From positions 1 through 24,335 of the forward strand of contig URYE01000034.1 in the NCBI GenBank assembly GCA_900551945.1: DNA of 24,335 nucleotides. Reading direction: 5' to 3'. The position numbers and the translations under genes were made by a program. The stretch's first letter is position 1. Each line of letters starts with the position of its first letter. This DNA is from an uncultured Eubacterium sp. (GTDB lineage Bacteria > Bacillota > Clostridia > Lachnospirales > Lachnospiraceae). The notes beneath the pieces were generated by a model, which saw only the letters and a list, made by a program, of their open reading frames with translations, was not told the DNA's origin and did no database searches. This document shows positions 1,370-18,831 of the stretch, piece by piece.

Positions 1370-1370
1370 A

Positions 1371-3969: not shown

Positions 3970-6015
3970 TCAATCAATATACTTCTTTATCAATAGCTTA
4001 TTTTGTCCTTGAGAGTATTCATACTCCATAGTATCCATATTTTTTTTAACCATATATATACCAAGTCCACCTATTTCTCTTTCTTCAGCAGATAGTGTAA
4101 TATCTGGGTCTTCTTTTTCTAATGGATTATAGGCAACTCCACTGTCAATAAAGGTAATTCCAATAGCTTTAGGATTGTCATACTCCTCAATTCTTACAGT
4201 TGCTTTTCCTACTTTATCACCGTAAGCATAGTGAGCAATATTTCCAAATATTTCATCAATAGCTATATCCATTTGCATTTTTACTTTTAATGGGCAATTC
4301 ACATTATCTAAAATATCATCTACAAAATCCGTTACTTTACTAATATTTTCAACAGTTGCTTCTACAGTAATCTCATTCATAGAATTATCCCCCATTTTTC
4401 TTTTGTACTCAAGACAAAGCATCGTTATATCATCAAATTGTTCATTGTCACCTACAAATAAGTCTATATCATTTTTAACAAGCTTTAGAGTTTCATTTGC
4501 ATCACTTTCAATGCACTTTTCATTTAATACAGCATTAAGTCTATCCATACCATACAATTGCTCTTGCTTATTCATAGCTTCCGTTACGCCATCTGTATAT
4601 TGAAATATTCTATCTCCTACATTAAGCATAATCTTTTGTTCTTTATACTTTATATTTTCCATTCCTGCAAGAACAAAGCCTGGTCGAGTTTTATATACTT
4701 CAAAACCTACACCTTTACGATATATAAATGGTGGCTCATGCCCTGCATTTACATATCTAAACTCACCCGTTACAAGGTCAAGCACACCTTCAAATGCCGT
4801 AATAAACATACCATTGTCATTAGCTTCACATAAAATATTATTGACCTTTGTAAATACTTCTCCTAAATCTCTATTAGGTTGTGTATGGTCTTTTATTAAT
4901 GTCTTGCCAATTACCATGAAAAGAGCTGCTGGAACTCCCTTTCCTGAAACATCTGCTACTACAATTGCAAGATGTCTTTCATCAACCATAAAAAAGTCGT
5001 AAAAATCACCACCAACTTCCTTTGCTGGTGTCATAGTTGCATAAATATCTATCTCATCTCTATCTGGAAATGCTGGGAAAATACAAGGTAACATAGACAA
5101 TTGAATGTGTGTTGCAACATTTAACTCGGTACTTATACGTTCTTTTTCTGATGTAACAGTAGTCAGATTTTCAATATAACTTTCCAATTCTTCAAGCATA
5201 ATATTAAAAGATGTTCCAAGCTCTTGAATTTCATCTTTTGTATTAATCTCTATCTTTTGTTTTGAAAACTCTCCTGAACTTGTAATACTTGTTGTAAAGA
5301 TAGCTAGTCTTTCAATTGGATTAATAACTACTTTTCTTACAAACAACATATATAACAAAAGCGCACCACAAATACTACTAAGAGAAATAATTAACATATT
5401 ATACAAGAAAGAATTAAGATGATTACGAACATCCTGCATATCAAGAATATATTGTATTTCTGCAATTGCATTTCCATTTTCATCTAAAATAGGAGAAACA
5501 GAAGTATAATTATATCCATAACTATTATCAGTAACTACTGGTTCATCCGTTCCTTTATTTTGCGCATACAAATTCCAAATCAAGATATATTTTTTCAAAT
5601 CCACTTCATCATAAGCTGCGTCTTTATAAAGCACATTTGTACCATAAGTTAATTGCGCATATGGGTCATCACCCATTTCCTCTACACAACAATCAATATA
5701 AAAAGTCACACTATTTTCGTCAGGAATTACTAATGACAAATATGTAATATCTCCATCTTTTTTTAATGTATTTAACATATTTTCCACTCGACTATATGCT
5801 TCACTACTTTGACCACCTTCACTTATAATGGTTCTTACATCTTCTAAATTTAACATTGTTGCAACACTTTTACTTCCACTAGTAATCCTTTGAGCATACA
5901 TACTTTCAAGATAAGTTTTTGAAGACTTATAACTAAAAAGTGAAATTGTAATTGTAAGAACTGCGCCCAATATTGCTAACGAAATAATAAATTTAGGCAA
6001 CAACTTTATTTTCAT
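3970..6015 (-). CDS. Membrane sensor SpoIIE-type Ser/Thr phosphatase fused to an RsbW-like ATPase domain
   Basis: This 681-residue protein has a first membrane helix at about 8-28, an extracytoplasmic sensor region at 29-200 and a second helix at about 206-226. A HAMP-like linker (228-285) leads to a PP2C/SpoIIE phosphatase (about 315-537) and a C-terminal HATPase domain (about 548-681). Metal-binding phosphatase motifs are present: GGDFYD (335-340), VADVSGKG (353-360), YTDGVTEA (474-481) and DDITML (528-533). The ATPase domain keeps the N-box (DEIFGNIAHYAYG), the D-x-G box (IDSGVAYNP) and the GGLGIYMVKK box, so it looks competent. The architecture fits a partner switch in which the phosphatase dephosphorylates a STAS antagonist and the ATPase phosphorylates it; the operon encodes such a STAS protein. 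It is the last gene of the operon and overlaps the GNAT gene by four bases (ATGA). The ligand is unknown. Confidence 0.92.
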   Translation of the reverse strand: MKIKLLPKFIISLAILGAVLTITISLFSYKSSKTYLESMYAQRITSGSKSVATMLNLEDVRTIISEGGQSSEAYSRVENMLNTLKKDGDITYLSLVIPDENSVTFYIDCCVEEMGDDPYAQLTYGTNVLYKDAAYDEVDLKKYILIWNLYAQNKGTDEPVVTDNSYGYNYTSVSPILDENGNAIAEIQYILDMQDVRNHLNSFLYNMLIISLSSICGALLLYMLFVRKVVINPIERLAIFTTSITSSGEFSKQKIEINTKDEIQELGTSFNIMLEELESYIENLTTVTSEKERISTELNVATHIQLSMLPCIFPAFPDRDEIDIYATMTPAKEVGGDFYDFFMVDERHLAIVVADVSGKGVPAALFMVIGKTLIKDHTQPNRDLGEVFTKVNNILCEANDNGMFITAFEGVLDLVTGEFRYVNAGHEPPFIYRKGVGFEVYKTRPGFVLAGMENIKYKEQKIMLNVGDRIFQYTDGVTEAMNKQEQLYGMDRLNAVLNEKCIESDANETLKLVKNDIDLFVGDNEQFDDITMLCLEYKRKMGDNSMNEITVEATVENISKVTDFVDDILDNVNCPLKVKMQMDIAIDEIFGNIAHYAYGDKVGKATVRIEEYDNPKAIGITFIDSGVAYNPLEKEDPDITLSAEEREIGGLGIYMVKKNMDTMEYEYSQGQNKLLIKKYID

Positions 6016-6602
6016 AATAATTCACCCCTTTCCAATATTTTATAATATATAGCTCCATCACATTTACAACGTCCATTGCAAATAGGACATATAAGTTCTT
6101 TTTTGTCATACCATACTCTTTTTGAATTAACCAAATAACAAAACCCAAATTTTTTTAAATTCTTTTCCATTGGAATTTCACCATTTTTCTTCCAAAATAC
6201 TCCAAATGCAATATCTGCTTGTGTATTTTTTAACAGATATTCCAAATACACTTTCATTAAATACTCTGACAACTTACATTTTCTATATTCTGCAAGAACT
6301 CCAATTGATTGTAAATTTCCAATAATAAGGTCATCTTTTTTAACTATTTGTTTTAATTTTGACAAGGATTTTTTTGACAATAACTCAGCTTCTCTTAAAT
6401 TTATTAATTTAAAATAAATATAAGCTACTGCTTTTTTCTGTGGCGTTATCAATAAGAAAAATTGTTGGTTTTGTTGCTTTATAGTCGCTTTAATTATAGA
6501 TTTTGTATATAAATTTTCTCCCACGCATTTCCCACACAATTGTGTTGCTTGATCAAGATATTCAAGTGTCAATGGAGTTAGTATCAATTCTTCTATGTTC
6601 AT
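6012..6602 (-). CDS. GNAT-like acyltransferase with a C-terminal cysteine cluster
   Basis: I place the start at the ATG at 6600-6602, giving 196 residues. A GGAGG lies eight bases upstream of it, whereas the longer GTG start at 6617 would bury that site inside the coding sequence. Central residues read LQSIGVLAEYRKCKLSEYLM (about 97-116). This fits acetyl-CoA-binding motif A of the GNAT fold in a degraded form, because the usual Q/RxxGxG/A is not clean. The C-terminus carries CPICNGRCKC (172-181), a C-x2-C-x3-C-x-C cluster that could bind zinc or a cluster; this is unusual for a plain GNAT. The gene overlaps the methyltransferase by 41 bases and the phosphatase by 4, so it is embedded in the operon. 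Its substrate is unknown. It may be a regulatory ligand-binding GNAT rather than an enzyme. Confidence 0.65.
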   Translation of the reverse strand: MNIEELILTPLTLEYLDQATQLCGKCVGENLYTKSIIKATIKQQNQQFFLLITPQKKAVAYIYFKLINLREAELLSKKSLSKLKQIVKKDDLIIGNLQSIGVLAEYRKCKLSEYLMKVYLEYLLKNTQADIAFGVFWKKNGEIPMEKNLKKFGFCYLVNSKRVWYDKKELICPICNGRCKCDGAIYYKILERGELL

Positions 6603-7455
6603 TAGCCATTCCTCCACAAGTATATATTTTTACTCCCATACAAACTTTTGCTTTTTCGCTTATCATATAATTATGAAGCTTATCAAAGTTTCTAGTCACC
6701 CATTCCCAACACTCTTGATAAATATTATTTTCAGGCTCTTGTTCTCTAAGTAACATTAAATCTTCTTTTAAGTAAGAACAAAACGTTGTAAAAATTGCTT
6801 CTTTTTTAGAAATTTCATCACCCTTAGCACATATAGTTGAACATCTAAGTCTATAATCTAAATATCCACTTTCATTAAAAAGTTGTGGCAATTCACTACC
6901 AAATGTTCGTTTCCCAGAGTATGGGTCATATTCAAGTACTTTAAGAAACTCTTTAAAAATTCCATCTGTATCTGGACTTAAGTAACTTTCTGTATCGTCA
7001 GGTTCTATAACAATAATACAACCATCTGGTGCTAAAAATCTTTTAAGTTCCTTTAATACCTTTACGGCATTTTTTAAATGTATTAATAAAAATGAACAAT
7101 TAATTATATTAAAATACTCTATTTTTTCTGCGCTCATAATATTTGTCAATTTATCAATAAAATCTGATTTTGTAACATCACATGAAAAAAACTTAAAGAC
7201 TTCATTTCCAAATTTTTTATTAGCTTTTTCGGTCAATTCATCTAAACAATCTAAACCAATAATCTTATCAAAGTTATTTTCAGAAAAACGAGTTTTAGTT
7301 TTACTGCCATCATTACAACCAATATCAAGAAGTGTAAGTCCTGTTCTTTTATTTATTATTTCATTGTAAATAGGTTGTTCATACTCTATAAGCAACTGTC
7401 TTTGAACTTCTAAACGTTTTAATTCTGTATTATCTAAGTAAACTGAATTTGCCAA
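6562..7455 (-). CDS. Class I SAM-dependent methyltransferase
   Basis: The protein has 297 residues with a Rossmann-fold methyltransferase core. Motif I is TLLDIGCNDGS (about 41-51), the acidic end of strand 2 is IIGLDCLDEL (about 65-74), CDVTKSDF (about 91-98) follows, and a later strand reads PDGCIIVIEPDD. The start is TTG (7453-7455) preceded by AGGAGG nine bases upstream; there is no suitable nearby ATG, so the TTG start is well supported. It follows the MATE gene by 13 bases and overlaps the GNAT gene. Small-molecule methylation is the usual role of this class. Its company with isopentenyl isomerase and radical SAM genes suggests a biosynthetic step, but the acceptor is not predictable. 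Modification of the divergently encoded peptides is only one possibility. Confidence 0.85.
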   Translation of the reverse strand: MANSVYLDNTELKRLEVQRQLLIEYEQPIYNEIINKRTGLTLLDIGCNDGSKTKTRFSENNFDKIIGLDCLDELTEKANKKFGNEVFKFFSCDVTKSDFIDKLTNIMSAEKIEYFNIINCSFLLIHLKNAVKVLKELKRFLAPDGCIIVIEPDDTESYLSPDTDGIFKEFLKVLEYDPYSGKRTFGSELPQLFNESGYLDYRLRCSTICAKGDEISKKEAIFTTFCSYLKEDLMLLREQEPENNIYQECWEWVTRNFDKLHNYMISEKAKVCMGVKIYTCGGMANEHRRIDTNSIDT

Positions 7456-7468
7456 CTTAATTTTCCTC

Positions 7469-9190
7469 CTAAATAATTACATATAAGTAATTAAACACTA
7501 ACTTTCTTTGATAATTATAATACTTAGCTTTTTGTGTAATAAGCTTCATAGCCGCTTTATCAATTTCATCACCATGTAAATCAAACGGATTATATGTATT
7601 AACATTATCTCTAATTCTTAAAATATATTCTCCGTTGTTATCAATAAGTTTTACTGACACATAATAATTCTTTTTTGTATTTTTTAATCCAAACTTCATA
7701 ATATTGATAATTAATTCTTCTACAATTAAATTAATAAAAAAAGAATGTTTATAATCAATATTCCATTCTTCACAAAGTGCTTCAAGATTATTTGCAACTT
7801 CTTCCATACTTCCTGCTTCTATTGGATAAAAATGTTCAAACATTTTATTTGTAAAATTATATTTTTCTGCTATATATTTTCTTGAACTTGAAAATATCTT
7901 TATTATTAAAATTAATAATAGACATATAATTTCACTAATTAAATATACAAAAGAAAGACCTATTATCCCATTATATAAAATCAAAAAAACTCCAAACAAT
8001 AACATTAAAATAAAGTTTCTAAGAATTGATAAACAAGAAGCAAGTTTAATTCTTCCAATTGTCTGCCAAAAAGAAATTGTAACAACATTAATTCCAGCTA
8101 ATATAAAACTTGATACATAAATACGAAAAGCCATAACAGCAATATCAAACGATGTAGTACTTGATAATCCAAAAAACATCAATATTTTTTCTGCAAAAAG
8201 CACAAATAACGCCGCAATAATTGTTCCTGCCATTACTACAATTCTAATTCCATCATTATAAACTGCCATCATTCCTTTTTGTTCTTTTTCTCCTGCCAAA
8301 ATAGAAACAACTGTAGAAGCCGCCGCTCCTGCCCCATCAAATACTGCTGATGAAACAGTGCTAATTGTATACATCACTCCAAATACTGCTACAAAAAAAA
8401 CACCATTTTCCAAATCATTCTTTAACAGCAAAGTGTTAAATACAAGCATTACTATAGCTTGAAAAATAAAAGCAGAACCCACTCCAAAACCATTACTAAT
8501 AAATTGCTTTGTTGCATTTATTGTAGGAATACATAAATGAAGTTTTAACAGTGCTTGTTTTCTTGTAAAGTGAATAAGTAAAATAAAACACCCTATTAAC
8601 TCAGCAATACAAAGAGAAGATGAAGCACCAATAAGTCCCCAATTCAATACCTTCATAAATAAAAGGTCTAAACTTAGATTAGTAATTATAACGCCTATAG
8701 AAGCAATAGCTGTCAATTTTGGTTCTCCATCTGTTCTAACGGTTGCTGAAAGAATATGATATAATACAAAAATTGGAGCTGAACAAAATACAACTATTAA
8801 ATATTTAAGCACCTGAGATAACAACTCTGGTGTAGCACCTAGAAAAATACAAAATGCCTTTCTAAAAATTAAAGATATTATTGATAAAACTATTCCAACT
8901 ATCAACCCTATACTTAATACATATTTAAAATTTGCATTTGCTTTTTCTATATCTGATGCACCTAAAAACTTTCCAATTAATACATTAGCACCACTTCCTA
9001 AAGTAATACCTAAAAGTGCATATATTAAAAACACAGGTGTCGCAATATTTGCAATTGCAAGTCCCTCACTTCCAATAAAATTTCCTACTAATGTTGCATC
9101 AATTAATGTAGATATCGTAATTCCCAATGAAGAACAAATTCCCCAAAACAAAAAAGTTCTATATGCGCTTTTAGCATATTTTGTTTCCAT
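7469..9190 (-). CDS. MATE-family transporter fused to a degenerate RsbW-like ATPase domain
   Basis: About the first 440 of 573 residues form a MATE-type multidrug/metabolite antiporter with roughly twelve hydrophobic helices (for example GICSSLGITISTLIDATLVG at 17-36). Residues from about 461 to the end match the histidine-kinase-like ATPase fold of anti-sigma factors: EELIINIMKFG (491-501) is the N-box and RDNVNTYNPFD (about 527-537) replaces the usual DxG box. The GxGL lid is absent, with AAMKLI standing where a glycine-rich GLGLxLI is expected. The domain may therefore bind a partner rather than phosphorylate it. The gene sits four bases after the STAS gene, so its ATPase-like domain and the STAS protein are natural partners. 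This would couple transport to partner switching, which is unusual. The transported compound is unknown. Confidence 0.85.
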   Translation of the reverse strand: METKYAKSAYRTFLFWGICSSLGITISTLIDATLVGNFIGSEGLAIANIATPVFLIYALLGITLGSGANVLIGKFLGASDIEKANANFKYVLSIGLIVGIVLSIISLIFRKAFCIFLGATPELLSQVLKYLIVVFCSAPIFVLYHILSATVRTDGEPKLTAIASIGVIITNLSLDLLFMKVLNWGLIGASSSLCIAELIGCFILLIHFTRKQALLKLHLCIPTINATKQFISNGFGVGSAFIFQAIVMLVFNTLLLKNDLENGVFFVAVFGVMYTISTVSSAVFDGAGAAASTVVSILAGEKEQKGMMAVYNDGIRIVVMAGTIIAALFVLFAEKILMFFGLSSTTSFDIAVMAFRIYVSSFILAGINVVTISFWQTIGRIKLASCLSILRNFILMLLFGVFLILYNGIIGLSFVYLISEIICLLLILIIKIFSSSRKYIAEKYNFTNKMFEHFYPIEAGSMEEVANNLEALCEEWNIDYKHSFFINLIVEELIINIMKFGLKNTKKNYYVSVKLIDNNGEYILRIRDNVNTYNPFDLHGDEIDKAAMKLITQKAKYYNYQRKLVFNYLYVII

Positions 9191-9194
9191 ATTC

Positions 9195-9494
9195 TTACTC
9201 CACTGTTAAAATATCAATAAATCCTGTCATTTCAAACACTTCCATTACCATATCAGCTACATTAAAAAGACTCATTTCAATACCATTCTTATTTGCATAT
9301 TTCTGACCATTTAAAAATGCTCTAAGGCCTGCACTAGATACATAAACTACATTTTCTAAATTAATTCTTAATGTTTTTACTGTTGAAAGCTCCTGCATTA
9401 ATGTTTCTTCAAACTTAGGTGCTGTTGTTGTATCAATTCTTCCTTCTACTTCAATAATCTTTGTTCCATTTTCTTCTTTTACATTAATATTCAT
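9195..9494 (-). CDS. STAS-domain anti-sigma factor antagonist (RsbV/SpoIIAA-like)
   Basis: I choose the ATG at 9492-9494, giving 99 residues beginning MNINVKEENG. A GGAGG lies eight bases upstream, while the ATG at 9509 would place that site inside the gene. The protein is a single STAS domain of standard length. The segment VVYVSSAGLRAFL holds the phosphorylatable serine of the SSAGLR motif. In the known mechanism an RsbW-type kinase phosphorylates this serine and a PP2C phosphatase removes the phosphate. Both partner types are encoded in the same operon: two ATPase-like domains and one SpoIIE phosphatase. No dedicated sigma-B-type sigma factor is nearby, so the output may be the MATE-fused domain or a factor encoded elsewhere. 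Confidence 0.93.
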   Translation of the reverse strand: MNINVKEENGTKIIEVEGRIDTTTAPKFEETLMQELSTVKTLRINLENVVYVSSAGLRAFLNGQKYANKNGIEMSLFNVADMVMEVFEMTGFIDILTVE

Positions 9495-9517
9495 TTTTAT
9501 TTCCTCCATTTGATTTT

Positions 9518-10384
9518 CTAATTTTTATAATCTAATTCATAAATATTTTGTAAGCAATTCTTTACCAAAACTTCTACAAGCTTTGCATATTGTGATGGCA
9601 AATAGCCTGAATTTGCTGAACGACATACTGTTATTAAGCTAGGCTTCCAACTTAATGAGCTTAACCACTTCTCAAATCTGTCTACCCTTTTATGTATTCT
9701 TTCTTCATCTGCTTGTTTTTCAAAAACAATTGGTTCTTCATACCTAAGATAAAATCTTCCATCTACAGCTTCTGCTCTTATTAACTTTCTAGGTAAAATT
9801 CTAAATGCGTGATAAGGATTATTTATATATTCCTTATATGCTTCTTCTGTAATTTCTAATCTTTTAGGCGGAACTGTTGAAAGTGTATCGTCCCAACAAA
9901 AATAATCTAAATCAATATCTAACACAACATTTTCAAGTTGCTCAGTACTTTCAAGACTTCCTTCAAAATATGTAAAAAAACTATACTCGTTATTATTGTC
10001 TTTTCGATACTGACTGTGTAAAAATGGAATATACTCTCCTACAGTAAGTGCATTATTTCCTATTCTTCTTATAAATCTATCTTGATGTACAAACTTTTTG
10101 GGTACTACTGATTTCATATTGTAGAATTGAGAAAATATCCCTTCATACATCGCTGGCACAATAAAATCGGCAATTCCAAGTTCTTCATAAGTAAACTTTT
10201 TTCTTTCTTCTAAACTTGAAAAAGGCTTTGTAAAATCTCTTTTATATCCACCACATTCAAAATCATCATGATGGTCTATATGAAACAGTGTATTTCCTTT
10301 TTCATTTATATACTTCTTCTCTATAGCAAGCCCCCAATAATAAAAGGCTTCGTGATGTTCCTGCATACAATATACTGGTATCAT
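9518..10384 (-). CDS. UPF0489-family protein with arginase-like metal-site motifs
   Basis: This 288-residue soluble protein begins MIPVYCMQEHHEAFYYWGLA, typical of the uncharacterised UPF0489 family, which also occurs in eukaryotes. Two acidic/histidine motifs stand out: HIDHHDDF (35-42) and LDIDLDYF (155-162). They match the order and spacing style of the DxHxD and DxDxxD metal ligands of arginases and deacetylases, so a metal-dependent amidohydrolase fold is a reasonable inference. No substrate is known. The gene is one base downstream of the isomerase gene, with AAGGA eight bases before the ATG, and is translationally packed in the operon. Its retention beside a radical SAM enzyme and isomerase suggests a role in the same pathway. 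Confidence 0.75.
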   Translation of the reverse strand: MIPVYCMQEHHEAFYYWGLAIEKKYINEKGNTLFHIDHHDDFECGGYKRDFTKPFSSLEERKKFTYEELGIADFIVPAMYEGIFSQFYNMKSVVPKKFVHQDRFIRRIGNNALTVGEYIPFLHSQYRKDNNNEYSFFTYFEGSLESTEQLENVVLDIDLDYFCWDDTLSTVPPKRLEITEEAYKEYINNPYHAFRILPRKLIRAEAVDGRFYLRYEEPIVFEKQADEERIHKRVDRFEKWLSSLSWKPSLITVCRSANSGYLPSQYAKLVEVLVKNCLQNIYELDYKN

Positions 10385-10385
10385 A

Positions 10386-10916
10386 TTAAAATTCCTTTTC
10401 TCTTTGTTTTATAAGATATTGATATACCATCGGAAATGCTGTAAGAAACCACGCCGCATATTTTTGTGGTGCTTCTACCATATCCTTTGCAAGCCAATCA
10501 ATATCAACATATTTCATTTCTTCTGCTTCTTCTTTGTTGCAAACAAAACCACCTTTATATTCTCCAACAAAAATATGGTCAAGTTCATATTCAGATAACT
10601 CATCAAAAACTTCTCTATATACAAAAGAATTAAGGTGCTTTACATCACAAGAAACTCCTACTTCTTCTAAAAGTCTTCGTTGCACAGCCATTTCTAATTT
10701 TTCTCCCACTCTCGGATGTGAGCAACAAGTATTAGCCCACAAGCCTGCTGAATGATATTTATTAGAAGCTCTTTTTTGAATTAAAAGCTTATTTCCATCA
10801 TATAAAAAGACTGAAAAGGCTCTATGTAATAACCCCTTTTTATGAACTTCCAGCTTATATCCTTGTCCTATTTGTTCATCACGATAATTAACTAATATCA
10901 AACAATCTTCTGCCAT
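10386..10916 (-). CDS. idi: Isopentenyl-diphosphate delta-isomerase, type I (NUDIX)
   Basis: This 176-residue enzyme has the usual length for bacterial type I IDI, which interconverts IPP and DMAPP in the cytosol. The diagnostic CCSHPR (64-69) holds the catalytic cysteine before S/G-HP. HRAF (31-34) supplies a metal-binding histidine, and YELDHIF (110-116) supplies the catalytic and metal acidic residues. The NUDIX box region GEKLEMAVQRRLLEEVGV runs from 71 to 88. It follows the radical SAM gene by 14 bases. An isomerase of this type is not needed by the MEP pathway for growth, so its place in a non-isoprenoid operon is notable. It either boosts DMAPP supply for a prenylated product or, less likely, is a relative acting on another diphosphate. 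Confidence 0.85.
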   Translation of the reverse strand: MAEDCLILVNYRDEQIGQGYKLEVHKKGLLHRAFSVFLYDGNKLLIQKRASNKYHSAGLWANTCCSHPRVGEKLEMAVQRRLLEEVGVSCDVKHLNSFVYREVFDELSEYELDHIFVGEYKGGFVCNKEEAEEMKYVDIDWLAKDMVEAPQKYAAWFLTAFPMVYQYLIKQREKEF

Positions 10917-10930
10917 AAACTAATTCCTTT

Positions 10931-12811
10931 CTATTTTCCAATAGCACAACCATCCTCGCCCATATAAATTTCTTTATTCATTTTCCAATTTACTGCTACA
11001 CATGGAAGACAGTAATTTTTATATGTACAACTATTGCAAGGTTCTTTTTTGTTATCCTCTATCTGTCTAATTTGTTTTAAAACATTTGAATTCTCCCAAT
11101 ACTGCCTTATTGTGTCAAAATCTTCTTTAATTTCTAAATGTCTACAAGGTGTTAGCTTACCATCTACACTTACACTAATACCGTCACGCCCTGCTCCACA
11201 CCCTTTTGATATACCTTGATTTAGATTTGTAAAAAAGCGTTTTCCTAATACTGCTTTTAACTGTGAAAAACACTCCTCAACTTCTATATTAACAATGCCT
11301 TTATATTCTTTAATACATTTTGCTATTTCATAAATTTGCACTACACTAGGTACACTTTTGCGTTGATTTTTAGCATCTGGTTTAAATACCATAACTACAA
11401 GCCCACACACATTATACTTTTCTGCTAACTTAATCATCTCTTTAAAGTCACTAGCATTGTTAGAGTGCATTACCCAATTAATATAAGTTTTTTTGTAATT
11501 CATGTTTTTAAGTATTTGCAATGTATTAATTGCTAATTCATAGCCATCTCTAGTTTTTTTATTAATTTCTTTTGTACTTCCATTTAAAGAAATGCAAATT
11601 TCCGAAACTCCACTTTCAATTAATCGCTCTAACTTTTCTTTATCTACTCCAAACCCAGAAAGTGCAATATTAGTTTCCATTCCAAAATCACTACTTACTT
11701 TTATTAACTTTTCTAAATCAGGATAAATAATAGTTTCTCCACCGCTTAAATTTATTGTCTTAACATTATTTTTTGAAGCTTCTTTAAGCCAATACAATGC
11801 TGTATCAAATTCCATATCTTTTCCACCCAATAATTCACAATAACACTGTGGACAGTGTAGTGGACACCTTGTCGTCAACTCCAAATTCATAAGCATTGGT
11901 GTATCATACGCCCTAAAGTCAGCACAATAACACACACTTCCTTGTCTCAAATACGCCTTTGCTTTTAAAGGCTTACTTTCCATAAAAGGTATTTTAAAAT
12001 GTGATATATCATTTTGTATAAATGGCGTATGACTTGGAAATCTATTTATAAACTTAAGTACATCTTCTTTTTTATCTCTAGTACATAAGCTAACATTTTC
12101 TAATGCTTCAAGAAATTCTTTTACAACTTTACTTTTTTTGCTTGTTGTTCCAAAATTAATTCCTATTTTTTTTGATATTCCATTTTCTAAAATATCAAAA
12201 TCTAAAATGAACTTCTTTTTATCACTATAATCTTCCCATTTGGCTAAAAACTCATCAAGCTTTTGTGTATCTCCCTGCCAACTAAGCTCTTTTAAGTAAA
12301 TTATGATATCTTCTCTTGTCATATCTTCTGTAAATAAACGTATTCTATCTAATTCCATTCTTCCATTCATACTTCCCAATTGAAAAAGTCGGTCACATTT
12401 TCCTTCTAGCTTTGCTACACAAATTTCAAGCATATCTCTTAATCTCTCAACTCTTTCACGCCCTGTTAGCTTAACAAGTACATTGTTATAAAATTCACTA
12501 TTATCCTTTCCTGTCAATACATTGGAAGCATCTATAAAATAACAAGCAGGAATATCTTCTTCTCCACAACCTTTTCCATCTAACTCATACCAATATTCTG
12601 TTACTTGTAAAGAGCTTACATCTTTTCGTATAGAATAATCACAACCTGTTACTTCTTCTGATAAACACACTTCTAAGATTGTTTCTTGTGTTTCAATATC
12701 CCCATATAATCTTTCTACATTTTTTAACTTGTCTATATCTTCTTTTGAAAAAAGTGCAGGATACTGACTCTTTCTAAAATAATTTAAATAATCTTTTACC
12801 ATTATACCCAT
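10931..12811 (-). CDS. Radical SAM/SPASM enzyme with a large unassigned N-terminal domain
   Basis: The protein has 626 residues. Residues 1-300 are an unrecognised domain containing ELDRIRLF (153-160) and LDFDILENGISKKIGINF (203-220). The radical SAM core starts near 306, with the 4Fe-4S motif CPLHCPQC (316-323) and the GGE SAM-binding motif (357-359). The C-terminal SPASM region has Cys 538 and 556, then CNSCTYKNYCLPC (592-604) and Cys 622, enough for auxiliary clusters. SPASM enzymes often modify ribosomal peptides, installing thioether or carbon crosslinks. The gene is first in the operon and divergent from the three peptide genes across 168 bases, which makes them candidate substrates. 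A recognisable peptide-binding RRE was not seen. The ATG at 12811 follows GGAG by ten bases. Iron-sulfur radical chemistry is secure; the substrate is inference. Confidence 0.9.
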   Translation of the reverse strand: MGIMVKDYLNYFRKSQYPALFSKEDIDKLKNVERLYGDIETQETILEVCLSEEVTGCDYSIRKDVSSLQVTEYWYELDGKGCGEEDIPACYFIDASNVLTGKDNSEFYNNVLVKLTGRERVERLRDMLEICVAKLEGKCDRLFQLGSMNGRMELDRIRLFTEDMTREDIIIYLKELSWQGDTQKLDEFLAKWEDYSDKKKFILDFDILENGISKKIGINFGTTSKKSKVVKEFLEALENVSLCTRDKKEDVLKFINRFPSHTPFIQNDISHFKIPFMESKPLKAKAYLRQGSVCYCADFRAYDTPMLMNLELTTRCPLHCPQCYCELLGGKDMEFDTALYWLKEASKNNVKTINLSGGETIIYPDLEKLIKVSSDFGMETNIALSGFGVDKEKLERLIESGVSEICISLNGSTKEINKKTRDGYELAINTLQILKNMNYKKTYINWVMHSNNASDFKEMIKLAEKYNVCGLVVMVFKPDAKNQRKSVPSVVQIYEIAKCIKEYKGIVNIEVEECFSQLKAVLGKRFFTNLNQGISKGCGAGRDGISVSVDGKLTPCRHLEIKEDFDTIRQYWENSNVLKQIRQIEDNKKEPCNSCTYKNYCLPCVAVNWKMNKEIYMGEDGCAIGK

Positions 12812-12846
12812 ATATGCAATTCTCCATAAAAAAACATTTATATATT

Positions 12847-12875
12847 AATACAACTAAAAAACGCACCGTGTTACA
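12847..12875 (-). promoter_or_regulatory. ECF-type promoter of the radical SAM operon
   Basis: On the minus strand TGTAAC (12875 down to 12870) is followed after 17 bases by TGTATT (12852 down to 12847). This resembles the SigX-type consensus of Bacillus as I recall it (TGTAAC, 17-base spacer, CGAC). It is nearly identical to the promoter facing the peptide genes, including the shared TGC and GTTGTAT blocks. Distance to the radical SAM ATG is about 35 bases. The sigma-factor assignment is inferred. Confidence 0.55.
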
Positions 12876-12909
12876 CTTTTTTATAATTTTTTGATATTTT
12901 TTGTAACAC
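12868..12909. repeat. Inverted repeat GTGTTACA...TGTAACAC between divergent promoters
   Basis: GTGTTACA (12868-12875) and TGTAACAC (12902-12909) are perfect 8-base inverted arms around an AT-rich centre. The symmetry continues outwards through both promoters. The arms coincide with the two proposed -35 elements, so the repeat is best read as two divergent promoters and not as a single operator. A dimeric regulator binding the arms cannot be excluded. Confidence 0.7.
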
Positions 12910-12930
12910 TTTGCCTATTTCGGTTGTATA
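12902..12930 (+). promoter_or_regulatory. ECF-type promoter of the peptide precursor genes
   Basis: TGTAAC (12902-12907) is followed by a 17-base spacer and TGTATA (12925-12930). The predicted transcript begins near 12937 and has a leader of about 43 bases before the first peptide ATG. The motif mirrors the leftward promoter base for base at most positions. An ECF-type sigma factor is encoded at 20753-21265 and is the obvious candidate to use it. Confidence 0.6.
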
Positions 12931-12979
12931 AATATTTGTATGAAAATCATGTACATAATTTTAGAAAGGAGTTACATAT

Positions 12980-13300
12980 ATGAACGAACAACAAATCAAA
13001 GAAATTTTTTCTGATGAATCTTTTGTCAATTCTATTTTAGAAATGGAAACACCGCAAGATGTCCAAAAAGCACTTTCCGAAAAAGGTCTTGATTTAAGTC
13101 TTGAAGAAATTAACACTATTCAAAACACTCTGATTAATAATGACAATGAAGGTGAATTGTCAGAAGATGACCTTGAAAATGTCGCTGGTGGAGTTGCTGT
13201 TACTACTGTTATTTGTGGTTTAATTATTGGTGCTGCTGCTGCCTCTGGTACTTTCCAATTAGGAAAAGCTATTCATAATTGGACTAGAAGACGTTGGTAA
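12980..13300 (+). CDS. Peptide precursor A: Nif11-like leader, double-glycine site, hydrophobic core
   Basis: This is a 106-residue precursor. Residues 1-71 are an acidic, helical Nif11-like leader (FSDESFVNSILEMETPQDVQ near 10-29) ending ELSEDDLENVAGG, the site cut by C39 peptidases. The predicted 35-residue core starts at 72. It is rich in Val, Ile, Gly and Ala (GLIIGAAAASG, which contains GxxxG), has one Cys, and ends NWTRRRW. This pattern suits a membrane-active, cationic-tailed secreted peptide, possibly modified by the divergent radical SAM enzyme. AAAGGAG sits eight bases before the ATG. It is the first of three tandem paralogues, 25 bases before the next. Bacteriocin and signalling roles are both possible. 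Confidence 0.9.
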   Translation: MNEQQIKEIFSDESFVNSILEMETPQDVQKALSEKGLDLSLEEINTIQNTLINNDNEGELSEDDLENVAGGVAVTTVICGLIIGAAAASGTFQLGKAIHNWTRRRW

Positions 13301-13325
13301 TTTATAGAAAGGAGAATTAATTATT

Positions 13326-13646
13326 ATGAATGAAGAATTATTAAAAGAAGTTCTTTCTGACGAAGCTTTTGCCAAATCATTAATAGAAATGGAAACACCC
13401 GAAGACGTTCAAACTGCCTTAAAAGAAAAAGGTGTTGACCTTAGTATTGAAGATATTAAAGCAATTCAAAATATTCTTGTTAATCAAGAAGATGGAGAAT
13501 TATCAGAAGACGACCTTGAAAATGTTGCTGGTGGTAGTTTAACTATCATGGCAGCACTTGGTATTGCAAGTATCATTGGTGCTGCTGTTGGCGGTACTAT
13601 CAAACTTGGAAACAGCGTCAACAATTGGACTAGAAGACGTTGGTAA
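13326..13646 (+). CDS. Peptide precursor B: Nif11-like leader, double-glycine site, GxxxG core
   Basis: The precursor has 106 residues. The leader (1-70) closely parallels that of precursor A (LSDEAFAKSLIEMETPEDVQ near 10-29) and ends in the same ELSEDDLENVAGG. The predicted 36-residue core is cysteine-free and hydrophobic (LTIMAALGIASIIGAAVGG), with GAAVG fitting the GxxxG helix-packing motif of two-peptide bacteriocins, and it ends NNWTRRRW. The lack of Cys argues against an obligatory thioether or disulfide in the family as a whole. The nucleotides encoding the last residues and the stop are identical to those in A and C. It is transcribed with A and C and preceded by AAAGGAG. Confidence 0.9.
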   Translation: MNEELLKEVLSDEAFAKSLIEMETPEDVQTALKEKGVDLSIEDIKAIQNILVNQEDGELSEDDLENVAGGSLTIMAALGIASIIGAAVGGTIKLGNSVNNWTRRRW

Positions 13647-13678
13647 TTTTATAATTAATTAGAATAGGAGGAGACACT

Positions 13679-13981
13679 ATGAATGAAAAATTAGACGAAT
13701 TATTAAAAGATGAAGCATTTATTGAAAAATTATTAAATCAAGAAAACGACACAGATGTACAAGCACTTCTTGCTGAAAATGGTATTGAACTTACACTTTC
13801 TGATATTTCAGCTATTAAGTCAGGTATCGAAGCACGTTTATCTGACAATGAAGAATTATCAGAAGACGACCTTGAAAACGTTGCTGGCGGTGTTGACGTT
13901 GATAAAATTATCACAGGTGTTGTTGATGGTATTTGTAAACTCGGTGACGCAGTTCACAAATGGACTAGAAGACGTTGGTAA
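13679..13981 (+). CDS. Peptide precursor C: Nif11-like leader, short amphipathic core
   Basis: The 100-residue precursor has a leader (1-71) that is more diverged at its start (LLKDEAFIEKLLNQENDTDV near 8-27) but ends in the same ELSEDDLENVAGG. The 29-residue predicted core differs in character from A and B: it is shorter, has acidic residues (VDVDKIITGVVDGICKLGDA), one Cys and a GVVDG motif, and ends HKWTRRRW. Its amphipathic nature makes it the most plausible of the three as an inducing pheromone or a complementary partner peptide; that is inference. An AGGAGG site precedes the ATG. A strong terminator follows 50 bases after the stop. Confidence 0.9.
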   Translation: MNEKLDELLKDEAFIEKLLNQENDTDVQALLAENGIELTLSDISAIKSGIEARLSDNEELSEDDLENVAGGVDVDKIITGVVDGICKLGDAVHKWTRRRW

Positions 13982-14031
13982 TCAACATATCTTTCAAAAT
14001 ATCATCAATATTCATTTTATCCACTAAAAAT

Positions 14032-14070: not shown

Positions 14071-14109
14071 TTAATTTACGCAAACAACAAACTATTTATA
14101 AACAAAATA

Positions 14110-16656
14110 TTATAACTGCCTTACAGCTAAATCATAAAATCTGCCTTTTTTATCCATTAATTCTTTATAGCTTCCTTGTTCTACAACTGTTCCTTTTTCA
14201 AGTACAAATATCCTATCACAGTTCATAACTGTACTAAGTCTATGTGCAATGACAACTCTTGTTGCTTTAAGTCTTTCAAGACTTTCACATACCATAGCTT
14301 GTGTAACATTATCTAATGCTGATGTCGCTTCATCAAAATAAATAATCTTAGGATTACCAACTATAGCACGAGCAATTAAAATACGTTGTTGTTGTCCTCC
14401 TGATATCGTTCCACTATCTTCTGATAAAACAGTATGTAATCCCATCGGCATTTGATTAATATCATCTTCTAAACCAACGGCTTTTACAACCTTTTTAACC
14501 TGCTCTAGTTTTGTACCAGGTGCTGTAATTGTGATATTTTCAAATATACTTCCACTTATTAATTTGCCATCTTGAAGAACAACTCCAAACTTTTTACGAA
14601 GTTCTCTCTTATCCATACTATCAATGTCTTTTCCGTCATAGTAAATCTTACCGACATCTGGTTTTTCAAAACCTAACAATAACTTTAAAAGTGTTGACTT
14701 ACCACTTCCAGACGAGCCAACAATGCCAATATATTCTCCTGCTTTAATGTGCATAGAAACATCATTTAATATAACTCCTGAGGCTTCATTATAAGAAAAT
14801 GTTAAGTTATTAACTTCAATATCTCCTGTAAGAGTACCTGGCATTACCATATCTTCATCAAATTCTGAAAGTGTTTGTAATATTGGTTTACATCTGTCAT
14901 ATGCTGGCTTTATATCATTTACTTGCAATATAGAAGATACAATCTGAAGCATAGCTCCTGAAAAAGAACCAAATGCTGCACTAAAACCCATAAAAGCACC
15001 TACTGATAATTTCATACTATTTTTTATCATAAGATAATAAAGCACAATAGAAAATACAGTATTCATTGCCCCTACTAATGTATTAACAGCAACTGTCATT
15101 TTCTCTTTTCTTATATTGATTTTTCTTGACTTAGTATATGTCTTTAGATACTCATATAATGCCCTGTTTTCCACTCCTGCTATTCTTATTTTTGAAATTC
15201 CATTTAAAAACTGATACATTACAGAACTTGTTTTACTATCTAATTCCATTTTCTTTACTTCATATTTTGTTTGTAAAATTCCTATCCACATAATAACAAG
15301 CATACATATAAGCAACATAACTAATGATACACTCGTCAACTTTTTAGAATATTGAAACATTCTCCATAAATAAAGCAATGAGAAAACAGCACTTAAAATT
15401 GTCTTAATCGCTACATCTGCTATTGTATTATATATCTGAGAAATTCCCATTGCTCTTTGTGCTAACTCTGCTGAGTCATACTTGCGAAAGAAACTCTCTG
15501 GAAGATTAAACAATCTATCATAAGTAGCACTTTGAACAGCATATTCCATTGCGTTCATACTTCTAAAAGCCGCCAAATTTTTTACTATTGTAAATGTTAC
15601 ATTTCCTATAGTACATGCTAGAATTACACAACTTATCTGTACAAGTCCTGTCTTATTTCCCATAGGTATAAATTTATCATATAACTGTTCATTTATAAAC
15701 GGTATTAACAAACCAATAAGAGTTCCTAAAAGTGCTAGTAAAATAAACCTAACAATATCACTCTTGTAAACATTTTTCATACCAAAGAAAAATAAATCTT
15801 TAGCTTTTAATTCTTTATTTGGAAATGGACGATATAGCATATCTGCTTTTACTTCTAACTGCTGCGCATATTCTTCATCTATAATACAACTAGTTTGTCT
15901 TTGAGCATCATATGCCATATATTTTTTAGGGCTTATTGGAACACAAGCAATCGGCTGATGTCCGTCTTTTCTATATGCTAAAATAGGTCCACTATCTCGC
16001 TTATACCATTTTGGTTCTAACACTACCTCTCTAACAATAAAATGAGATATTCTAGCAATATCAGCTACTGTAAAACGTCTTCCACAACTATCTTGAATTT
16101 TATCTAAGCTTGCTATTTGTATATCGGATTTATTACATAAATAAGCAACCCCATCATAAATTCTATTTCCCGATTGTGATATAACACGATTTTCTTTTTT
16201 TCTTTGAAATAATCCATAAATTATATTAAGACTTTTTTCATAAGTGTTTTTTTGCTCTCTTGCCGTAGCATATATATAGCCTTCTTCTTTAATTATATTG
16301 ATATTATATTTTTCAATTAACTGTTCGTCATACTCTTGTATATCAAATAATTTTATTTGTACTTTTAAAGCAAATGTATTTTTAATTTCTTCATTTTGTT
16401 TTTCATCACATACCTTAATAACGGCTTTATCTAACGCAACAAGTCCTATTCTCCATACACCAAGTACTTCATCATCTTTTGTGAAAGCTGGTATTTTTTC
16501 TCCGGGTGTCATTTCTGCAATAAGCTGTCTTCTTCCGGGTATACCATTTGTATATGGAAATAAATATACCAACACATGACCTTCCATTACTTGATAAACC
16601 GTCATATTATCTTGTGTAATATGTATTTGCCCACCTTGTATTTTTATATAATCCAT
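14110..16656 (-). CDS. NHLM-type bacteriocin export ABC transporter, permease/ATPase subunit without peptidase
   Basis: The protein has 848 residues. A soluble N-terminal part of about 290 residues lacks a C39 catalytic site and begins with a beta-rich, cyclic-nucleotide-binding-like segment (QVMEGHVLVYLFPY), as in the second ABC subunit of NHLM systems. It is followed by about six membrane helices (roughly 300-600) and a nucleotide-binding domain: Walker A GSSGSGKST (647-655), signature SGGQQQR (about 752-758), Walker B IIYFDEATSALD (ends about 782) and the switch IAHR. In NHLM clusters it pairs with the peptidase-bearing ABC protein to export peptides whose leaders resemble Nif11 or nitrile hydratase. 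It is the last gene of the sigma/exporter operon, 12 bases after the peptidase subunit, with AGGAG upstream. Confidence 0.9.
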   Translation of the reverse strand: MDYIKIQGGQIHITQDNMTVYQVMEGHVLVYLFPYTNGIPGRRQLIAEMTPGEKIPAFTKDDEVLGVWRIGLVALDKAVIKVCDEKQNEEIKNTFALKVQIKLFDIQEYDEQLIEKYNINIIKEEGYIYATAREQKNTYEKSLNIIYGLFQRKKENRVISQSGNRIYDGVAYLCNKSDIQIASLDKIQDSCGRRFTVADIARISHFIVREVVLEPKWYKRDSGPILAYRKDGHQPIACVPISPKKYMAYDAQRQTSCIIDEEYAQQLEVKADMLYRPFPNKELKAKDLFFFGMKNVYKSDIVRFILLALLGTLIGLLIPFINEQLYDKFIPMGNKTGLVQISCVILACTIGNVTFTIVKNLAAFRSMNAMEYAVQSATYDRLFNLPESFFRKYDSAELAQRAMGISQIYNTIADVAIKTILSAVFSLLYLWRMFQYSKKLTSVSLVMLLICMLVIMWIGILQTKYEVKKMELDSKTSSVMYQFLNGISKIRIAGVENRALYEYLKTYTKSRKINIRKEKMTVAVNTLVGAMNTVFSIVLYYLMIKNSMKLSVGAFMGFSAAFGSFSGAMLQIVSSILQVNDIKPAYDRCKPILQTLSEFDEDMVMPGTLTGDIEVNNLTFSYNEASGVILNDVSMHIKAGEYIGIVGSSGSGKSTLLKLLLGFEKPDVGKIYYDGKDIDSMDKRELRKKFGVVLQDGKLISGSIFENITITAPGTKLEQVKKVVKAVGLEDDINQMPMGLHTVLSEDSGTISGGQQQRILIARAIVGNPKIIYFDEATSALDNVTQAMVCESLERLKATRVVIAHRLSTVMNCDRIFVLEKGTVVEQGSYKELMDKKGRFYDLAVRQL

Positions 16657-16668
16657 ACGACTTTTCTC

Positions 16669-18813
16669 CTAGATATTCTGTATAAGTCTTTGATAGTGAC
16701 CTTCCTTGCTTGCTAATTCTGTATGTGTTCCCCTTTGTACAATCTTACCTCTCTCCATTACAATAATCTCATCGCAATCACGAATAGCCGATAACCTATG
16801 AGCAACTATTAAACAAGTACAACCACGTCGCTTAATATTATCTATAATTTCTTTTTCTACAATAGGGTCTAATGCGCTAGTTGCTTCATCCATAATTAAT
16901 ATACTAGGATTAGTAACTAAGGCTCTTGCTATTTCAAGTCGTTGTCTTTGACCACCTGACAGATTAGTACCACCTTCTGACAATACAAAATCATAGGCTC
17001 CCGGTTTTGATGTAATTACCTCATGTATACAAGCATCTTTTGCAGCTTTTACAATATCCTCATCAAGTACATTTCTATTCCACATAGTCAAGTTATCTCT
17101 TATCGTGCCAGAAAATAATGTAATGCTTTGGCTTACTGTTGATACACTAGAAGACATTATCTCTTTTGGTATCTGTCTGCTATTTATATTATCCATTAAC
17201 ACTTCACCAGACCATGGCATATATAACCCACTTACAATCTTTGATACAGTAGATTTGCCACAACCAGAAGCTCCCACAAAGGCAATCGAACTTCCACATG
17301 GTAAATAAAAGTTAAAATCTTCAACTAATGGCTTTTCTAAAATACTATATCCAAATGATATATTTTTTAATTCGATTTCACCTGTTAATTTCGTTGTCAT
17401 CGTAACTACTTCCTGTTTTGAAAACTTCTCATCTTCTTCGTATTTCATTATATCTTCTACACGACTCATATCAGCCTTTAATGTCTGTATCTTTTGTATA
17501 AAACCAACTAATTGATTGACTGGCTCTGTAAATGAACTAAGAAGACTTGTATACGCAACTAACATACCAGCCGTCATGTTTCCATTTATAACTAATATAC
17601 CGCCCACCATCATTACTACTATATTACTAATTTCACCTGCCACTTCCGGAATTGCATTTAATATCTGTTGTCTTTTTCCTAGTTGTTGTTCTAATAAAAT
17701 GGTTTTTGCATAATATCCTTGTATTCTTCCTACATATTCATTTTCTGCACCAGATGCTTTTAATGTACTTGTAATATTTAAACCAGCAAATACAGAACCT
17801 ATCATCTTACCCTGGTCTTGCTGCATCTTCATAGTATCATTTGCAATAGATGTTGAACTAAATTTAACTATAAACAAGTTAAATACAACACTTGCAATAC
17901 CAATTAATGTAAGCAACGGACTATATGTTAATAATAAAATCAAATAAAACATAGCAACTATGATATTAAGAACTGTTTCTCCCAAATCTCCCGCAAGAAA
18001 TGTACTTACATTATTATTATTTTCAACACGTTCTGCCAAATCTCCTGAATATCTCTGGTCAAAAAAGCTCATTGGCAAACGAAACAGATGTGAAAGAAAC
18101 TCATGTGCTGAAATAAGTGCCATTTTATTTTGTAATTTTTCAAGCAAAATACCACGATAAAAAGTAAGTAATGCTTGAAACAATACTGTAAAACACATTA
18201 TAGTTAAAAAAGCTGTTATCCACTTTGTATTTCCACCTAACAAAATGTCATCAATAAAAACTTGTGAAAATACAGGTATAACTAATCCCGGAAATACAAG
18301 ACATAGACCTATTGCAACTAAAGCAAATATAGATGTATATTGTCCTTTAAGTCGTCTCTTTACAAAGCTAAGTAATGTTCTTTTCTGTCTGATTTTTTCA
18401 AACTTTTCAGTTATTTCAAATGTTAAAACAATACCTGTAAAACAATCATCAATTTCTTCTAATGTTAGTTTCCTTCTACCCATAGCTGGGTCATTAATAT
18501 ATGCAAACTTTCCTTTTACACCTTCCCATACAACAAAGTGATTAAAGTTCCAATGAATAATACAAGGTGGTTTGCATTTTAATAAATTATCAAGGCTTTT
18601 CCTATAGCCCTTTGCTTCTAGTCCAAATTTTCTAGCAGCTCTTAAAATATTTTTAGCATTACACCCATCTCTTGAAACACCGGTTTCTATACGCAACTGT
18701 TCCAATGCCATGTGTCTTCCATAGTATCCCATAATCATAGATAGTGACGCAGCACCACATTCTGTAGCTTCCATCTGATAGACAGTTGGTGTTTTTGCAT
18801 ATTTTTTCTCCAT
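16669..18813 (-). CDS. NHLM-type bacteriocin ABC transporter with N-terminal C39 peptidase
   Basis: The protein has 714 residues. Residues 1-133 form a C39 double-glycine peptidase with Gln13, catalytic Cys19 (EATECGAAS), His92 (NHFVVW) and Asp108 (NDPAMG), so the site is intact. About six membrane helices span roughly 155-450. The nucleotide-binding domain has Walker A GASGCGKST (514-522), signature LSGGQRQR (about 618-625), Walker B ILIMDEATSALD and IVAHR. It should cut after the GG of the three precursors and export the cores, consistent with their ENVAGG sites. It lies between the HlyD-like adaptor (18 bases upstream) and the second ABC protein (12 bases downstream). The order HlyD, peptidase-ABC, ABC is typical of NHLM loci. 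Confidence 0.95.
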   Translation of the reverse strand: MEKKYAKTPTVYQMEATECGAASLSMIMGYYGRHMALEQLRIETGVSRDGCNAKNILRAARKFGLEAKGYRKSLDNLLKCKPPCIIHWNFNHFVVWEGVKGKFAYINDPAMGRRKLTLEEIDDCFTGIVLTFEITEKFEKIRQKRTLLSFVKRRLKGQYTSIFALVAIGLCLVFPGLVIPVFSQVFIDDILLGGNTKWITAFLTIMCFTVLFQALLTFYRGILLEKLQNKMALISAHEFLSHLFRLPMSFFDQRYSGDLAERVENNNNVSTFLAGDLGETVLNIIVAMFYLILLLTYSPLLTLIGIASVVFNLFIVKFSSTSIANDTMKMQQDQGKMIGSVFAGLNITSTLKASGAENEYVGRIQGYYAKTILLEQQLGKRQQILNAIPEVAGEISNIVVMMVGGILVINGNMTAGMLVAYTSLLSSFTEPVNQLVGFIQKIQTLKADMSRVEDIMKYEEDEKFSKQEVVTMTTKLTGEIELKNISFGYSILEKPLVEDFNFYLPCGSSIAFVGASGCGKSTVSKIVSGLYMPWSGEVLMDNINSRQIPKEIMSSSVSTVSQSITLFSGTIRDNLTMWNRNVLDEDIVKAAKDACIHEVITSKPGAYDFVLSEGGTNLSGGQRQRLEIARALVTNPSILIMDEATSALDPIVEKEIIDNIKRRGCTCLIVAHRLSAIRDCDEIIVMERGKIVQRGTHTELASKEGHYQRLIQNI

Positions 18814-18831
18814 CTGTTCACCTTCTTTCTG

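Follow-up and report, generated by a model that had tools for sequence, protein, structure and literature searches.

A Nif11-leader peptide cluster with a predicted prenyltransferase-radical SAM fusion protein and an isoprenoid isomerase gene in an uncultured Eubacterium sp.

INTRODUCTION

Why should genes for an isoprenoid isomerase and for every part of a regulatory partner switch share an operon with a radical S-adenosylmethionine (SAM) enzyme, back to back with genes for small secreted peptides? We addressed this question for a 24,335-nucleotide stretch of DNA from an uncultured Eubacterium sp. of the Lachnospiraceae (GenBank assembly GCA_900551945.1, contig URYE01000034.1), hereafter the window, to which all unprefixed coordinates refer. 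A preliminary description had proposed that eight closely packed genes of the window act in peptide modification, in peptide resistance, or in making a small molecule in response. The first of these guesses fits best: we consider it likely that the eight genes provide maturation and regulation in a Nif11-leader cluster for a ribosomally synthesized and post-translationally modified peptide (RiPP), with a three-peptide, bacteriocin-like product. Three points had been overlooked, namely that the UPF0489 protein belongs to a family of RiPP maturases, that the radical SAM protein has an N-terminal half modeled as an α-β-β-α (ABBA) prenyltransferase, which would account for the isomerase gene, and that the operon consists of two modules.

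Gene content was compared across 61 loci encoding relatives of the radical SAM protein (64 were found, and the archaeal L062-L064, with 21-33% identity, were left out). Here, L numbers denote the loci or stretches compared and P numbers homologous proteins. Domain counts cover the 120 radical SAM homologues listed of 255 found, and background frequencies come from 291 genomes sampled from the class, including that of L002. Literature searches covered open-licence PubMed Central full texts, among the matches listed, and statements about cited papers refer to excerpts of them.

RESULTS

A predicted ABBA domain fused to a radical SAM enzyme

All eight open reading frames (ORFs) were found on the minus strand at 3970..12811 (Table 1), packed as closely as had been described, with intergenic distances of 14, 1, 8, 4, 13, -56, and -4 bases in order of transcription; co-transcription is therefore very likely. 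The 56-base overlap presupposes a GTG start for the GNAT gene, and because 8 of 14 homologues are 193-196 amino acids (aa) long, the true start may lie about five codons downstream, making the overlap smaller. The operon faces three plus-strand genes (12980-13981), beyond which lies a minus-strand export operon with a gene for an extracytoplasmic function (ECF) sigma factor (14110-21265). Pfam and NCBIfam profiles supported the identities already given to the radical SAM, isomerase (IDI), UPF0489, methyltransferase, and transporter genes.

The radical SAM domain (PF04055, 74.9 bits) carries the cluster motif CPLHCPQC, and a set of auxiliary cysteines is invariant among 26 aligned sequences (C514, C538, C556, C592, C595, C601, C604, and C622), while no Pfam SPASM match was obtained in the window protein itself. 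PqqE (111 bits) was its best NCBIfam match, and the mycofactocin radical SAM model (69.5 bits) was also matched; it shares the radical SAM-SPASM type of these RiPP-type enzymes, PqqE and MftC, but scores well below both cut-offs and stands beside different precursors. With the N-terminal domain as query, we obtained no Pfam match at E ≤ 10, no Protein Data Bank (PDB) match, and two weak NCBIfam matches of no relevance (E 0.024 and 0.032). Its predicted model nevertheless has the ABBA barrel prenyltransferase fold, as does that of a relative encoded as a separate gene, and the idea of a leader-binding, PqqD-like domain was dropped on this account. Foldseek placed the model at TM-scores of about 0.43-0.58 with 7-13% identity, and over the structural comparisons as a whole, identity to cyanobactin F-family and DMATS-type enzymes was about 6-13%; the closest structures listed were 6-DMATS, CymD, MpnD, PriB, and AmbP1, with many tryptophan or indole prenyltransferases among the neighbors. 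The domain, assigned by fold, would thus represent an ABBA branch that the Pfam and NCBIfam libraries used here do not recognize.

ABBA prenyltransferases hold diphosphate-binding basic and tyrosine residues and an indole-binding glutamate inside the barrel. In all 30 aligned prenyltransferase domains, whether fused or separate, identical residues include E47, W74, E76, D78, R151, R158, and D206, and K273, K285, and Y287 are kept in 28, 28, and 29 of them. Conserved candidates for diphosphate or indole contacts are R158, K215, K273, K285, and Y287, and E47/E76, all given as alignment positions rather than places in a solved active site. The domain occurs in 119 of the 120 radical SAM homologues, and IDI forms part of the polypeptide in 16 of the 120. 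When the domain alone served as query, a protein search gave 10 matches, mostly fragments or radical SAM proteins, and one separate protein (P0129); where the domain is a gene of its own, an arginase gene mostly lies in the same locus.

Some loci depart from this architecture. At L025:1579-3367, the prenyltransferase and radical SAM portions are encoded in separate frames that overlap, a frameshift or an assembly error. About 40-200 residues replace the prenyltransferase domain in radical SAM proteins of L020, L021, L022, and L035, that of L021 retaining a 23-bit match to what may be a decaying domain. A second, distinct radical SAM gene (507-530 aa) is present in L034, L036, L046, L048, L056, and L060, from Syntrophomonadaceae and others. 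DUF7005 (PF22541) recurs in radical SAM loci (L002:4089-4940, L005:8779-9651, L014:12235-13128, L022:12668-13507, L025:6252-6680, and L018:6167-9070, the last fused to the prenyltransferase-radical SAM protein in Treponema) and is a candidate for a further maturase or protease of such clusters; the window has no DUF7005 match.

An isomerase that keeps company with the prenyltransferase

IDI scored above two NCBIfam cut-offs (NF002995, 136 against 127 bits; TIGR02150, 113.4 against 105.8). Its TCCSHP motif aligns with human IDI1, a PDB match, and with E-Y-E at residue 109 forms what we take to be the catalytic motifs of a type I enzyme. Across the 61 loci, IDI was found in 9 of 30 with the prenyltransferase domain and in 1 of 31 without it (p = 0.006). 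In that single locus, L031, the arginase gene begins 107 bases into the locus, and a prenyltransferase gene upstream could therefore lie out of view. A housekeeping or small-molecule isoprenoid pathway was ruled out, as IDI is fused to the prenyltransferase-radical SAM protein or shares loci with it and Nif11 precursors. IDI is best read as a local supplier of dimethylallyl diphosphate (DMAPP); loci that encode the prenyltransferase without IDI would have to draw on the general DMAPP pool of the cell.

Precursors with a near-invariant C-terminal tryptophan

The divergent genes, described earlier as encoding secreted peptides, are those of three Nif11-leader precursors, which matched the Nif11 model TIGR03798 in two cases and narrowly missed it in the third; the class IIb bacteriocin model TIGR03949 was passed by A1 only. 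L001, L003, and L013 each encode relatives of A1, A2, and A3 side by side in one locus, which suggests a multi-peptide product. The neighboring NHLM exporters exceed the cut-offs of TIGR03794, TIGR03796, and TIGR03797. Nif11 ORFs were present at 44 of the 61 radical SAM loci, compared with 11 of the 291 sampled genomes.

Among Nif11 ORFs with GG or GA, shorter than 180 aa and no more than 3 kb from the radical SAM gene, Trp is the last residue in 94 of 107, all with the stop codon in place. Each of the 37 loci with such a nearby ORF has at least one ending in Trp, and in 28 of these loci every one does, while Trp makes up 1.5% of the remaining core residues. Counted over whole loci (ORFs below 260 aa with a stop codon), the figure is 122 of 152. 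Controls were Nif11 ORFs away from the radical SAM gene, from the same genomes or the class sample, lacking any tail common to the radical SAM loci; Trp is terminal in 5 of 31 (Fisher p = 9e-14), after removal of cut copies of radical SAM-locus peptides (7 of 35 before). Split by the prenyltransferase domain, Trp ends 66 of 70 nearby ORFs in loci with it and 28 of 37 in loci without. Because the residue is kept where the prenyltransferase is absent, it appears to mark a substrate of the radical SAM domain first, and we infer that prenylation would occur there too.

A peptide arginase that tracks core arginine

The UPF0489 protein, previously called a possible amidohydrolase, is instead related to peptide arginases, known RiPP maturases: it matched PF12640 at 50 bits (gathering cut-off 27) and the solved enzyme OspR (PDB 8brp) at E 2.9e-38, which rules out a generic amidohydrolase. 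Metal-binding motifs are EHHEAF at residue 9 (preceded by Q, not E), DHHDD at 37, and LDIDLDYF at 155, matching the published EEH(N/H)EAF, DXHXD, and LDIDLDYF of OspR, FlmR, and OhkR (PMC12703449). According to PMC12703449, members of that family, also treated in PMC10028609, modify N11P (Nif11) precursors and precursors of other types. Unlike FlmR and OhkR, the window protein stays under the cut-off of NF052474 (212.5 against 350 bits), which places it outside this subfamily, and it is accompanied by the prenyltransferase-radical SAM protein and IDI, a setting not met in the excerpts compared.

PF12640 was found at 27 of the 61 loci and in 10 of the 291 sampled genomes. The RRR in all three window cores fits the Arg-bearing substrates of a peptide arginase. 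Over the 44 loci with Trp-ending cores, and taking Trp-ending ORFs only, the last 12 residues hold on average 2.47 Arg in the 21 loci with arginase and 0.74 in the other 23 (p = 2e-5), whereas Lys runs the other way (0.55 and 1.33, p = 0.02). Four loci scored as lacking arginase (L001, L003, L006, and L013) have Arg-rich tails on contigs that end before the usual place of the gene, so that the measured link is weakened, if anything. The protein probably converts Arg at the precursor ends to ornithine (Orn).

Table 1. Features of the window and the matches or models on which their assignment rests.
Feature	Position	Strand	Basis
ABBA prenyltransferase-radical SAM/SPASM fusion (predicted), 626 aa	10931..12811	-	PF04055 at residues 311-463; CxxxCxxC at 316; N-terminal fold model
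ABBA (indole) prenyltransferase-fold domain, N-terminal 300 residues of radical SAM protein	11912..12811	-	predicted fold
Type I isopentenyl-diphosphate isomerase (IDI), 176 aa	10386..10916	-	two NCBIfam cut-offs; PDB IDI matches
Peptide arginase (PF12640, OspR-like), 288 aa	9518..10384	-	8brp OspR match; metal motifs
STAS anti-anti-sigma-like protein (RsbV-like)	9195..9509	-	PF01740 65.4 bits; TIGR00377 75.3 bits (cut-off 53.45)
MATE transporter with C-terminal RsbW-like HATPase (~7574-7819)	7469..9190	-	MatE 100.5 bits; HATPase_c_2 20.5 bits, below cut-off 27.4
SAM-dependent methyltransferase	6562..7455	-	PF13489 37.3 bits
GNAT-like acyltransferase, start codon uncertain	6012..6617	-	no own Pfam match; homologue P0142 with PF00583
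HAMP-PP2C (SpoIIE)-HATPase_c_2 membrane phosphatase/kinase	3970..6015	-	PF07228 157.9, PF13581 64, PF00672 30.6 bits
Precursor A1: Nif11 leader, GG, 35-aa core ending WTRRRW	12980..13300	+	TIGR03798 31.8 bits (cut-off 32.3, missed by 0.5); TIGR03949 23.1 (cut-off 21.5)
Precursor A2: Nif11 leader, GG, 36-aa core ending WTRRRW	13326..13646	+	TIGR03798 43.3 bits; TIGR03949 20.7, just below cut-off 21.5
Precursor A3: Nif11 leader, GG, 29-aa core ending WTRRRW	13679..13981	+	TIGR03798 34.4 bits
Divergent promoter-like element TGTAACA-N14-GTTGTAT	12848..12929	one copy each way: 12848-12875 -, 12902-12929 +	pattern match, footprint
NHLM export: ABC2 14110-16656, ABC1 with C39 peptidase 16669-18813, HlyD 18832-20742	14110..20742	-	TIGR03797 880.3, TIGR03796 1039, TIGR03794 264.7 bits, all above cut-off
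ECF-type sigma factor, first gene of export operon	20753..21265	-	TIGR02937 99.5 bits

Two modules in one operon

A complete RsbV/RsbW/PP2C set with one part on the transporter had been described, and PP2C, STAS, and HATPase parts do all lie within the operon, the transporter-borne HATPase_c_2 match falling below its cut-off. Compared with RsbU, RsbV, and RsbW, the HATPases are fused, one to the MATE transporter and the other to the phosphatase. No SigB- or SigF-type target was identified in the window; the nearest sigma factor is the ECF protein, about 8 kb away in another operon. The same MATE-HATPase architecture recurs in L002 and in the six further stretches compared (L151-L156), which lack this type of radical SAM gene and the arginase gene but have genes for PP2C, STAS, or HATPase a few kb away at most; any MATE match at E 1e-30 was found in 41 of 196 genomes, and our literature search showed no description of such a module among the matches listed. 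L151 has two other Nif11-like ORFs nearby. STAS occurred at 12 of the 61 loci against about 0.6 expected from 164 per 243.9 Mb (99 genomes), two figures that come from different STAS models and from loci that are not independent, and in L006 and L007 the precursors are immediately preceded by a STAS-HATPase pair.

The eight genes form one operon adjoining the peptide genes, as had been claimed, and this operon comprises two modules: the radical SAM/prenyltransferase, IDI, and arginase genes recur with Nif11 precursors, and the MATE-HATPase, STAS, PP2C, and GNAT-like genes form a second, movable module often recruited by these clusters but found apart from them in other genomes. The GNAT protein itself gave no Pfam match with E values up to 10, while PF00583 is present in 1 of 14 homologues (P0142). 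This gene is more likely tied to the MATE module, because L151 and L152 each have two GNAT-like genes there, one per pair above the Pfam cut-off.

The co-occurrence search proposed earlier likewise gave a divided answer, the core genes being widely found together and a nearly complete eight-gene set in L002 only. L002 encodes the arginase, the prenyltransferase-radical SAM-IDI protein as a single chain, STAS, MATE-HATPase, and PP2C-HATPase, and in addition an LPG_synthase_C acyltransferase and a DUF7005 protein. GNAT had no match in the 61 loci and the methyltransferase none that convinced (weak, unrelated matches in L032 only); two of the closest relatives, L001 and L003, are uninformative on the full set, as their contigs end right at the radical SAM gene.

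Promoter-like element and neighboring genes

Between A1 and the radical SAM gene, the element TGTAACA-N14-GTTGTAT has two exact matches, one per direction, and none in 100 shuffles; a generic sigma-70 scan of 12600-14200 gave 6 sites against 8.7 in shuffles. A looser form was found in 4 of 156 loci, at the corresponding place in L001, L003, and L020 and elsewhere in L019. In the four-way alignment of the window with L001, L003, and L020, TTATACAAC, GTGTTACA, TGTAACA, and TTGTAT are invariant. Because these three loci also encode the closest relatives of the ECF sigma factor (199-205 bits, the next at about 104), that factor may read the element. The element was not found ahead of the window's own ECF/export operon, so autoregulation by this factor would be conjectural.

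Beside the export operon lies a LytTR response regulator/GHKL histidine kinase pair (21640-23732), of a kind known from peptide-pheromone bacteriocin systems. TelA and YceG_bac genes, resembling those for toxic-anion resistance, follow downstream of the eight genes after a 322-base gap (window 212-3647). Rfam and tRNA scans of the window gave no matches.

DISCUSSION

A proposed route and what weighs on it

We propose that the Nif11 leader brings each precursor to the enzymes, that IDI converts isopentenyl diphosphate to DMAPP, and that the ABBA domain prenylates the C-terminal Trp at its indole with a C5 (or longer) group. That residue would be changed a second time by the fused radical SAM/SPASM domain; our guess is a cross-link or an oxidative decarboxylation, the reaction of MftC on which this analogy is based. 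The arginase would convert Arg of the WTRRRW tail to Orn, and the C39 exporter would cleave after GG and secrete the peptides. MATE-HATPase, STAS, and PP2C would form a partner switch tied either to peptide production or to self-protection, with the signal likewise guessed. Both the donor length and the order of steps are part of the proposal. A bolder form, which we think unlikely, treats the prenyltransferase-radical SAM(-IDI) protein as a single machine for Trp dimethylallylation followed by radical SAM decarboxylation or ring closure, leaving ribosomal bacteriocins with an ergot- or hapalindole-like indole-terpenoid cap next to Orn, and has their production controlled by the cluster's sigma factor under the transporter-linked switch.

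Several observations weigh against the proposed route. Likeness of fold shows no reaction, the TM-scores and identities being low and the active-site candidates being drawn from sequence alignment. Relatives without the prenyltransferase domain also stand beside precursors ending in Trp, and the enzyme could act on Arg, an internal Trp, or another residue. IDI is absent in 21 of the 30 prenyltransferase loci, and 13 of the 107 nearby Nif11 ORFs lack the C-terminal Trp in a set that itself leans to relatives of the window's precursors, since matches to them had served to seed the Nif11 model. The loci share ancestry and are not independent, and many contigs are cut. Finally, any role of the putative methyltransferase and GNAT proteins in the route, for instance on Orn or Trp, would be conjectural.

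The persistence of the Trp where the prenyltransferase is missing would also fit an ABBA domain that prenylates Arg or Orn, an internal Trp, or another core residue while radical SAM chemistry alone handles the C-terminal Trp, and enzymatic bis-prenylation of the Arg guanidine is known, according to titles referenced in PMC12715784. We regard this as rather unlikely: prenyltransferase loci L015, L016, L018, L019, and L036 have Trp-ending cores without Arg, internal Trp is not general among cores, and the best structural neighbors include many tryptophan or indole enzymes. That the domain is a non-catalytic scaffold or leader-binding part, with another job for IDI, has nothing direct in its favor beyond the fact that fold is not function; it is very unlikely given the conservation of the charged residues and Tyr across the 30 domains, the fusion or co-location of IDI, and the existence of the domain as its own gene, mostly with arginase in the locus.

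Alternatively, the precursors could be scaffold peptides from which the modified Trp is released as a small molecule, as for pyrroloquinoline quinone (PQQ), mycofactocin, or ammosamide. Near-invariance is confined to the last residue while cores vary widely, PqqE is the best, if sub-threshold, match of the radical SAM protein, and C-terminal-Trp scaffolds are discussed for pearlins in the excerpt of PMC9505594. However, the peptide exporters score above cut-off, the cores are hydrophobic and bacteriocin-like (TIGR03949 above cut-off in A1 only), core Arg tracks the arginase, and no separate peptidase family is among the Pfam matches of the operon, so that this too seems unlikely. Doubtful, but less readily dismissed, is the view that two unrelated units are merely co-transcribed, the MATE/partner-switch genes serving stress or efflux without a role for the peptide. 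The MATE modules of L151-L156, which have neither this type of radical SAM gene nor the arginase gene, agree with it, while the excess of STAS at radical SAM loci, as counted with two different models, and its place just before the L006 and L007 precursors speak against it.

Relation to known systems and significance

Among the nearest published parallels to the route favored here is MppC/MppE, a Nif11-leader-dependent Trp prenylation of a lanthipeptide (PMC12715784). MppC shares with the window the Nif11-type leader, a beta-barrel prenyltransferase, and a Trp indole acceptor, but geranylates Trp82 within the core, a difference drawn from its description rather than from sequence; in that text, 'fused' and 'isomerase' do not appear and 'radical SAM' stands in the references only (PMC12715784). 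PalQ likewise acts on a Trp at the extreme C-terminus of its peptide but is of the trans-IDS-like class, with no radical SAM partner mentioned in the excerpt (PMC13290415). Cyanobactin F-family and DMATS-type ABBA enzymes have the barrel of the modeled domain, which differs in lacking Pfam or relevant NCBIfam matches, in its low identity to them, and in its fusion to radical SAM and, in homologues, IDI. Among the open-licence matches listed, our searches found no description of an ABBA-radical SAM fusion or of an IDI-containing Nif11 cluster, and the earlier statement that no named pathway has this composition held up within the same scope. As far as seen, this is a real, recurrent, and apparently undescribed RiPP maturation set in which known parts are newly combined.

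If the proposed route is correct, it would add a branch of ABBA prenyltransferases, detected by fold only, that is physically linked with a radical SAM maturase and with the enzyme supplying its DMAPP, and it would give a reason for an IDI gene within a peptide cluster. Predicted mass shifts would be +68 Da per C5 unit and -42 Da per Arg converted to Orn. Peptide prenylases are sought as tools for peptide lipidation, and a requirement for C-terminal Trp would be a useful handle. The cluster would also define a family of Nif11 RiPPs recognizable by their C-terminal Trp and encoded mostly by metagenome-assembled genomes of Clostridia-like bacteria and Selenomonadaceae, many of them from samples of gut or rumen, and would link the parts of a partner switch to peptide production.

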